Shown one piece after another: positions 29,679-30,272 of a stretch of DNA of 47,076 nt. Each line of letters starts with the position of its first letter. Within the stretch, counting starts at the first letter, position 1. The notes under the pieces were generated by a model, which was not told where the DNA came from, did no database searches, and saw only the letters and a program-made list of their open reading frames with translations. Position numbers and translations under genes: made by a program. The stretch comes from an uncultured Erysipelotrichaceae bacterium (GTDB taxonomy: Bacteria > Bacillota_I > Bacilli_A > RF39 > UBA660). The stretch spans positions 1 to 47,076 of the forward strand of contig CADCJQ010000023.1 of the NCBI GenBank assembly GCA_902801795.1, in the 5' to 3' direction.

Positions 29679-29744
29679 TTCTTGAATTAATAATTTATTT
29701 ATGTTATTATGAATATGTCAAGGATAACTTGATATAATAAAAAA

Positions 29745-29846
29745 GGATATACCTAATAAAAGGGAATTGTTAGGTACTTCCATTATAGATTTGCTGAAAG
29801 CATACTAACAACCAAAATCCTGTTAGTATGCTTTACTTTTACCAAA
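29745..29846 (+). ncRNA. Candidate small RNA (possible antitoxin) overlapping the 3' side of peptide copy A
   Basis: A TATAAT -10 (29733-29738) with a poor -35 would start an RNA near 29745. The RNA would contain a 7-bp hairpin (TACCTAA 29750-29756 with TTAGGTA 29770-29776) and end at a perfect 14-bp hairpin (29797-29810 with 29821-29834) followed by ACTTTT. It would be antisense to the 3' trailer of the minus-strand peptide mRNA. No equivalent -10 was found for copy B. Existence and direction are inference. Confidence 0.35.
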
Positions 29847-29978
29847 ACTCCCTTAGAGAGAGTTAATTTAACGTAATGTTAAAATAAATACTAGTATTAG
29901 TAGAACAAATATCATGATATATAAAAAGAATTCTCTTAATTTCATGATACACCTCCTTAAAGGAAGTACTAACAAATT
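29796..29978. repeat. Tandem repeat, copy A
   Basis: 183 bases matching copy B (30008-30190, shift of 212) with only two differences seen by eye: T/A in the hairpin loop (29818) and T/C in the ORF (29879). The unit holds a 14-bp hairpin, a second small hairpin, a 25-codon minus-strand ORF and its ribosome site. Outer flanks GGTACTTCC (29773-29781) and GGAAGTAC (29962-29969) are inverted to each other. Confidence 0.95.
29868..29945 (-). CDS. 25-residue hydrophobic peptide, copy A (candidate type I toxin)
   Basis: ATG (29945-29943) follows AAGGAGGTG at ideal spacing. The product begins MKLREFF, continues with about 16 nonpolar residues (Ile, Leu, Val, Phe, Met) and ends ILTLR: a charged start, one membrane helix and a final Arg. 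This profile is that of Ibs-, Fst- and Ldr-like toxin peptides, but it matches none that I know. The stop TAA is 4-5 bases before a 7-bp hairpin (29846-29864) with T4 on the minus strand, which could end the mRNA. Alternatives: a small regulatory membrane protein or a leader peptide. Confidence 0.6.
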   Translation of the reverse strand: MKLREFFLYIMIFVLLILVFILTLR

Positions 29979-30007
29979 AGGTACTTCCTGATATTTCAAA
30001 TATTTGC

Positions 30008-30190
30008 GAAAGCATACTAACAACCAAAAACCTGTTAGTATGCTTTACTTTTACCAAAACTCCCTTAGAGAGAGTTAATTTAACGTAATGCTAAAATAAA
30101 TACTAGTATTAGTAGAACAAATATCATGATATATAAAAAGAATTCTCTTAATTTCATGATACACCTCCTTAAAGGAAGTACTAACAAATT
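30008..30190. repeat. Tandem repeat, copy B
   Basis: The second copy of the 183-bp unit. 14-bp hairpin at 30009-30022 with 30033-30046. It lies on the clpB side; beyond 30190 the similarity ends sharply. The bases before the hairpin (about 29982-30007) differ from copy A, so the duplication is older than a perfect tandem copy or has been remodelled there. Confidence 0.95.
30080..30157 (-). CDS. 25-residue hydrophobic peptide, copy B (candidate type I toxin)
   Basis: Same peptide as copy A except Ala at residue 23 (ILALR). The change is a single base and keeps the frame, the ribosome site AAGGAGGTG and the stop. One of the two differences in 183 bp is therefore a conservative missense, and no frameshift has entered either copy. 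Upstream on the minus strand lies a poor promoter candidate (TTGTCA, 19 bases, TATAAA) that overlaps CIRCE. Copy A has no obvious promoter and may be read from copy B's transcript. Confidence 0.6.
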   Translation of the reverse strand: MKLREFFLYIMIFVLLILVFILALR

Positions 30191-30231
30191 GAAATCGTTC
30201 GACAAATTTCGACATTATTTTTTATAATAAA

Positions 30232-30272
30232 TTAGCACTCTTACTTGACAAGTGCTAAAAATAGAGTATAAT
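30232..30272 (+). promoter_or_regulatory. CIRCE operator and promoter of clpB
   Basis: TTAGCACTC (30232-30240), 9 bases, AAGTGCTAA (30250-30258): the HrcA-binding CIRCE element with one mismatch (A for G at 30250). TTGACA (30245-30250), 16 bases, TATAAT (30267-30272) is a consensus promoter that overlaps it, so HrcA would block the polymerase. Heat or misfolding stress should release it. hrcA itself is outside the window. Confidence 0.93.

Follow-up and report, generated by a model that had tools for sequence, protein, structure and literature searches.

Type I toxin-antitoxin systems are difficult to detect by homology and are known from few phyla (PMC12390103). Systems of the txpA/RatA and bsrG/SR4 type exhibit a 3' overlap of 100–140 bp (PMC6562991), and in aapA and hok a long-distance interaction between the 5' and 3' ends, along with local Shine-Dalgarno hairpins, silences the full-length toxin mRNA (PMC6733600). 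Here we consider a locus on a contig of 47,076 nucleotides (nt) from an uncultured Erysipelotrichaceae bacterium (GenBank assembly GCA_902801795.1, contig CADCJQ010000023.1; the whole stretch is referred to as the window), at which two tandem units each carry a gene for a 25-residue hydrophobic peptide. Our analysis suggests, with a probability of about 0.7, that this locus represents a rearranged member of a multi-copy chromosomal family of type I toxin-antitoxin modules combining a TxpA/BsrG-like 3' overlap with a fold-back of the toxin mRNA. The family, in which a peptide gene is paired with an RNA on the opposite strand and which is present in many copies per genome, is previously undescribed. 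An earlier note on this DNA had proposed a new type I system, and that reading is supported at the sequence level by the relatives, the synonymous excess, the overlapping structured RNA and the lack of any known match; the note had missed both the multi-copy, family-wide nature of the modules and the fold-back pairing of the mRNA leader with its own 3' end. The arrangement of the genes, selection on the peptide, RNA structures evident from covariation and cognate 5'-3' complementarity are what the sequence comparisons show.

The two units, described in the earlier note as 183 bp long with 181 identical positions, recur at a spacing of 212 nt, and repeat comparison indeed finds exactly two differences between them (29818, T/A; 29879, T/C). 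As likewise noticed there, each contains a minus-strand open reading frame (ORF) preceded by a perfect Shine-Dalgarno sequence, the peptide of copy 2 carrying Ala in place of Thr at residue 23:

29796–29978, no strand assigned: tandem unit, copy 1, 183 nt (repeat comparison)
30008–30190, no strand assigned: tandem unit, copy 2, 183 nt, lacking its own antisense promoter and hairpin 2
29868–29945, minus strand: candidate toxin peptide, copy 1, 25 residues, MKLREFFLYIMIFVLLILVFILTLR (ORF, paralogues and ratio of nonsynonymous to synonymous substitution rates, dN/dS)
30080–30157, minus strand: candidate toxin peptide, copy 2, 25 residues, ending ...ILALR, with Ala23
29950–29966, minus strand: Shine-Dalgarno sequence AAGGAGGTG (the same in both copies) with predicted masking CTTCC anti-Shine-Dalgarno, copy 1 (CTTCC-TTTAA-GGAGG; folding and family-wide masking)
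30162–30178, minus strand: predicted Shine-Dalgarno/anti-Shine-Dalgarno hairpin, copy 2 (folding)

A search for relatives of the peptide and the repeat was successful, and the relatives are multi-copy and distributed family-wide (membership of genome families being taken from the kinship labels of the genome sample). Among 119 distinct hits of a covariance model of the plus-strand RNA, denoted R1, 93 are followed within the next 260 nt by a hydrophobic mini-ORF with a Shine-Dalgarno sequence on the opposite strand. The corresponding figures are 1/119 on the same strand and 63/3000 (2%) for random segments, so that the pairing is far above chance; the 20/106 obtained in an upstream control are attributed to neighbouring modules in tandem. 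The starts of the mini-ORFs cluster at a fixed spacing, 100–140 nt beyond the RNA model. The peptides comprise 23–31 residues and form at least seven subfamilies, and dN/dS amounts to 0.20, 0.22, 0.44, 0.42 and 0.22 in the five alignable groups (12–25 sequences each), the bootstrap upper limit of the 13-member group being 0.94, that is, nearly 1 and weak if taken alone. The peptide family is under purifying selection, and relatives thus exhibit the synonymous excess which the earlier note had expected of a genuine ORF. No credible match to the peptides was found in Pfam, NCBIfam or PHROGs and a scan of the region against Rfam returned nothing at E≤1, which bears out the statement that no known family has this sequence.

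On the plus strand, R1 matches positions 29680–29790 (E 5.7e-11), and the following elements are predicted around this match:

29682–29710, plus strand: antisense (antitoxin) RNA promoter with -35 TTGAAT (29682–29687), 17-nt spacer and extended -10 TGtTATTAT (29702–29710) (family consensus and pattern scan)
29717–29843, plus strand: antisense RNA of about 125 nt with three hairpins, minimum free energy -37.6 kcal/mol (folding)
29718–29732, plus strand: 5' hairpin 1 of the antisense RNA, TCAAG-loop-CTTGA (compensatory changes in relatives)
29745–29781, plus strand: hairpin 2 of the antisense RNA, GGATATACCTAA...TTAGGTACTTCC (covariation)
29797–29843, plus strand: antisense RNA terminator, a perfect 14-bp hairpin followed by TTTACTTTT
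29733–29781, minus strand: intrinsic terminator of the toxin mRNA, the reverse complement of hairpin 2 followed by TTTTTTATTATA (sequence and folding)

The antisense promoter consensus of 100 family members consists of TTGnnA, 17 nt and TATGtTATtATGaATaTG directly before TCAAG, with the TTG at -36 to -34. The TATAAT at 29733, which the earlier note had read as the -10 element, sits inside the plus-strand RNA and was dropped in favour of this family-wide upstream consensus, and the RNA of 100 bases envisaged there is now predicted to measure about 125 nt. The idea of an opposite-strand RNA over the 3' trailer holds, its structure being conserved and overlapping the trailer, and the perfect 14-bp hairpin is present at 29797–29810/29821–29834. 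Stems of hairpin 1 in relatives include TCAAG/CTTGA, GCAAG/CTTGC and TGAAG/CTTCA, with mostly GNRA loops, and on account of these compensatory changes and loops, which identify an RNA hairpin, we rejected the palindrome as a protein operator. Double-sided changes affect 6 of the 8 pairs of hairpin 2 among 46 sequences and 7 of 8 among 121. For the antisense structure as a whole, 97% of cells are paired and 11 of 13 pairs exhibit double changes in an alignment of 121 distinct rows, which is fitted to the model and leans towards R1; none of 500 shuffles reached the observed values. Upstream of R1, the antisense promoter seems in several loci (L149, L157, L161, L163, L169) to be embedded in an intrinsic terminator, ACGACTTGTCAAAAAGTCGTTTTTATG, with the -35 TTG inside the hairpin and the T run leading into the extended -10.

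The toxin mRNA is predicted to start from a promoter with consensus TATAAT and a weaker TTG-T -35 element, which directly precedes a leader hairpin. Ahead of antisense hairpin 2, the conserved AAAAAAGG reads on the other strand as a hairpin followed by TTTTTT and would, together with hairpin 2, form the mRNA terminator, and the mRNA would therefore span nearly the whole antisense RNA; in 70 modules the final 16 nt contain on average 11.5 T. The predicted overlap of the two 3' ends comprises ∼95–110 complementary nt, and up to 111 nt in the window. Folding indicates that the Shine-Dalgarno sequence is masked by local upstream sequence, its unpaired probability being 0.22 compared with 0.35 when the upstream part is shuffled, and lower in 59 of 74 modules. 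Moreover, the leader and the antisense 5' hairpin are alike within a module and unlike between subfamilies, and this same-sense identity makes the leader complementary to the 3' end of its own mRNA. Cofolding of leader and 3' end yields a gain of -14.3 kcal/mol for own pairs, -10.0 within the same subfamily and -4.7 between subfamilies (22 of 50000 label permutations of seven subfamilies do as well), and the longest exact match measures 9.5, 8.0 and 5.9 nt, respectively. The excess for own pairs is equalled in 0/10000 within-subfamily permutations and persists when similar modules are removed. Mismatches in own pairs keep G-U pairing in a ratio of 79:25, as against 1134:674 in non-cognate pairs of the same subfamily. 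Leader and own 3' end thus covary module by module, and a 5'-3' fold-back resembling that of hok and AapA is predicted.

In the 1.5-Mb assembly of the genome itself, a DNA search finds six further matches, and the more sensitive count with R1 comes to 12 strong and 3 weak copies of the plus-strand RNA in all. Intact copies encode peptides of several subfamilies, at least three being represented (for example MRKTEKYLCTIIILLIIVILIFLIKIVPTV, MNKKDFLILSLVMIIFLLLFLLFIVLI and MMSKRLFIINILKYTSLILFFLSILIIVIKK); MTKREFSQFIIILLLFLVVIILLLK is another intact family peptide. The first 57 bp of the query match 119 of 193 genomes of the taxonomic family. Of 288 genomes sampled from the order, 214 have an R1 match, and these belong without exception to one family; among 296 sampled from the class there are 27, only 2 of which fall outside that family. 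Many genomes contain at least 13 copies. A scan of a named collection returned 85 stretches, none in viral contigs and nearly all from gut metagenome-assembled genomes labelled Bacilli, Tenericutes or Erysipelotrichaceae, with rabbit, goat and deer among the record titles. DNA similarity and pattern searches found no match to the module in phage and plasmid records, and a phage or plasmid origin was rejected on that ground. A single match in Flavobacterium (L124), devoid of hairpin and ORF, was taken as chance, and a strong one in another family of the class (E 1.2e-14; G521:C32:11711-11818, L211), near the end of a 12-kb contig, may reflect transfer or mis-binning.

The window locus is flanked by hpf and clpC homologues, as recognized by ORF inspection; the sister species G002 and G004 have different genes after hpf and no module at that site, and the position of the module is therefore not conserved. 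Elsewhere, in the same genome and in G163, some antisense RNA genes stand alone, their toxin ORF having been lost or become unrecognisable (L186, L189, L190, L195, L205), and two or three modules 350–900 bp apart, often of different peptide subfamilies, form tandem arrays (L064, L067, L106, L126, L128, L132, L177). Among the 116 modules with enough upstream sequence, 27 follow a tRNA or tmRNA gene at no more than 150 nt, starting 14–97 nt downstream of its 3' end (many at about 44 nt) and always in its orientation, never the opposite one, orthologous sites not being independent (for example L142, L149, L151, L157, L162, L163, L170, L175, L180).

In the likeliest of three alternatives, the peptides constitute a family of non-toxic small membrane proteins (a regulator, or a subunit of a membrane complex) incidentally under antisense RNA control. 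Purifying selection and the Shine-Dalgarno sequence indicate a translated peptide, toxicity itself being only inferred, and this much favours the alternative; but many divergent paralogues per genome, tandem arrays, the lack of a fixed neighbour gene and decayed copies that retain the RNA and lose the ORF would be out of the ordinary for a complex subunit and are typical of type I toxins, which leaves the alternative unlikely. On the evidence of selection and of the hairpins, we regard it as distinctly less probable still that the modules are a mobile repeat resembling miniature inverted-repeat transposable elements, with the end hairpins as transposase inverted repeats and the peptide as passenger: dN/dS well below 1 argues against a passenger, both hairpins lie inside the promoters and not at the ends of the element, and they are matched inside each module but vary from one subfamily to another, with differences that keep RNA G-U pairs at the above 79:25, even if multiple copies at scattered sites, often just 3' of tRNA genes and missing at the same site in sister species, are what a mobile repeat would produce. 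Finally, regulation of the Fst/par type, in which antisense and toxin RNA pair via 5'-end repeats and a shared bidirectional terminator, is the most improbable of the three in spite of convergent RNAs with similar 5' hairpins and a plain duplex energy somewhat better for cognates (339/50000), since the net cofold gain between antisense 5' part and leader is not cognate-specific (33889/50000), their exact complementarity is only slightly higher (6.0 vs 5.5 nt), so that such pairing is unsupported, each RNA has a separate terminator, and the peptides possess no PxxxG or Trp signature.

The earlier note had likened the locus to Ldr, Ibs, Fst and TxpA modules. Of this, the TxpA-like 3' overlap stands, and membership in Fst does not. 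The general hallmarks of type I systems, a hydrophobic peptide gene under selection and an antisense RNA gene overlapping the mRNA, are both found, the latter as judged from sequence. With Fst/par of the Enterococcus plasmid pAD1 and the Fst/Ldr superfamily, the modules share convergent promoters, a charged N-terminus followed by a transmembrane helix, and a Shine-Dalgarno hairpin; they differ (Fst features: PMC7472228) in that the signature of PxxxG(C) in the helix and a conserved Trp before the charged tail is absent from peptides of all subfamilies, which have no Pfam hit, and in that neither a shared bidirectional terminator nor direct repeats providing cognate antisense-leader complementarity are present. 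With txpA/RatA, bsrG/SR4, bsrE/SR5 and yonT/SR6 of Bacillus subtilis they share convergent genes, an antisense RNA whose predicted complementarity to the 3' end of the mRNA extends over about 100 nt, a single-helix hydrophobic peptide and a masked Shine-Dalgarno sequence. In contrast to those systems, no peptide homologue was found in Pfam, NCBIfam or PHROGs, the peptides are shorter (23–31 residues), a 5'-3' fold-back of the mRNA is predicted, and the family occurs in many chromosomal copies, no DNA match having been found in phage or plasmid records. The aapA/IsoA systems of Helicobacter and hok/Sok are similar in their 5'-3' mRNA interaction (predicted here from covariation), local Shine-Dalgarno hairpins and chromosomal multiplicity, whereas in the new family the 3' partner would be the mRNA terminator, and thus antisense hairpin 2, the leader element precedes the Shine-Dalgarno sequence, the peptides are unrelated (no homologous toxin in Pfam or NCBIfam) and the phylum is different. 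The evidence supports a type I family with TxpA/BsrG-like overlap, hok/AapA-like fold-back and unrelated peptides, which by the absent signature is placed outside Fst/Ldr and, by homology, outside the other families.

Several observations weigh against this reading, among them the state of the window copy itself. Comparison with the C33 and C14 paralogues indicates two deletions, one at the tandem junction, which took away an antisense promoter, most of its hairpin 2 and a toxin promoter, and one of ∼50 bp at the right end, which took away the second toxin promoter and a leader arm, leaving:

30174–30185, minus strand: remaining leader arm GTTAGTACTTCC, matching the mRNA 3' end, the other arm being deleted (C33/C14 comparison)
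30224–30251, minus strand: possible substitute toxin promoter TTGTCA-16-TATTAT (pattern scan; such sites are no commoner than chance)

A bicistronic mRNA would still span both peptide genes and end at 29733. The window copy is, by this comparison, a tandem rearrangement without the usual toxin promoter of the family and one leader arm, and the predicted fold-back is weak (-8.7 kcal/mol for copy 1, -1.9 kcal/mol for copy 2); for these two reasons we call the locus rearranged and perhaps silent, whereas the family at large seems active. Further, the fold-back does not rank first in two of seven subfamilies, RNAalifold applied to the aligned leaders yields, because of gaps, no single consensus structure, relatives are not independent and the permutation counts given above are thus not exact probabilities, and transcription, decay, translation control and toxicity are steps that we infer. 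In front of clpC, a CIRCE-like operator (TTAGCACTC-N9-AAGTGCTAA) is located at 30232–30258, and a possible leftward promoter overlapping it would read into the window toxin genes.

For an intact type I module of this family, we envisage that a strong promoter would yield the structured antisense RNA of about 125 nt and a convergent promoter a short mRNA encoding the single-helix membrane peptide of 23–31 residues, which would cross the whole antisense terminator and stop at the reverse complement of antisense hairpin 2. Pairing of the antisense RNA at the shared 3' ends is predicted to trigger mRNA decay, in the manner of RatA and SR4. The mRNA would carry two locks of its own, (i) the local hairpin masking the Shine-Dalgarno sequence and (ii) pairing of the 5' leader with its own 3' terminal hairpin in a long-distance panhandle like that of hok and AapA; full-length mRNA would consequently be poorly translated even without antisense RNA until its 3' end is trimmed. 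It is tempting to speculate, with doubt and confidence about evenly matched, that one hairpin serves three roles in a lineage-specific superfamily, as structure of the antitoxin RNA, as terminator of the toxin mRNA on the opposite strand and as fold-back partner locking the leader, and that its drift would insulate cognate pairs, so that a genome of 1–1.8 Mb could house a dozen or more independent modules.

A single family of uncultured gut Bacilli thus holds many copies of candidate type I systems, which comprise at least seven subfamilies of peptides and natural variants numbering in the hundreds. These constitute a large comparative data set on how toxin mRNAs are silenced and on what keeps parallel antisense pairs free of cross-talk, and the family supplies unrelated membrane peptides for testing.
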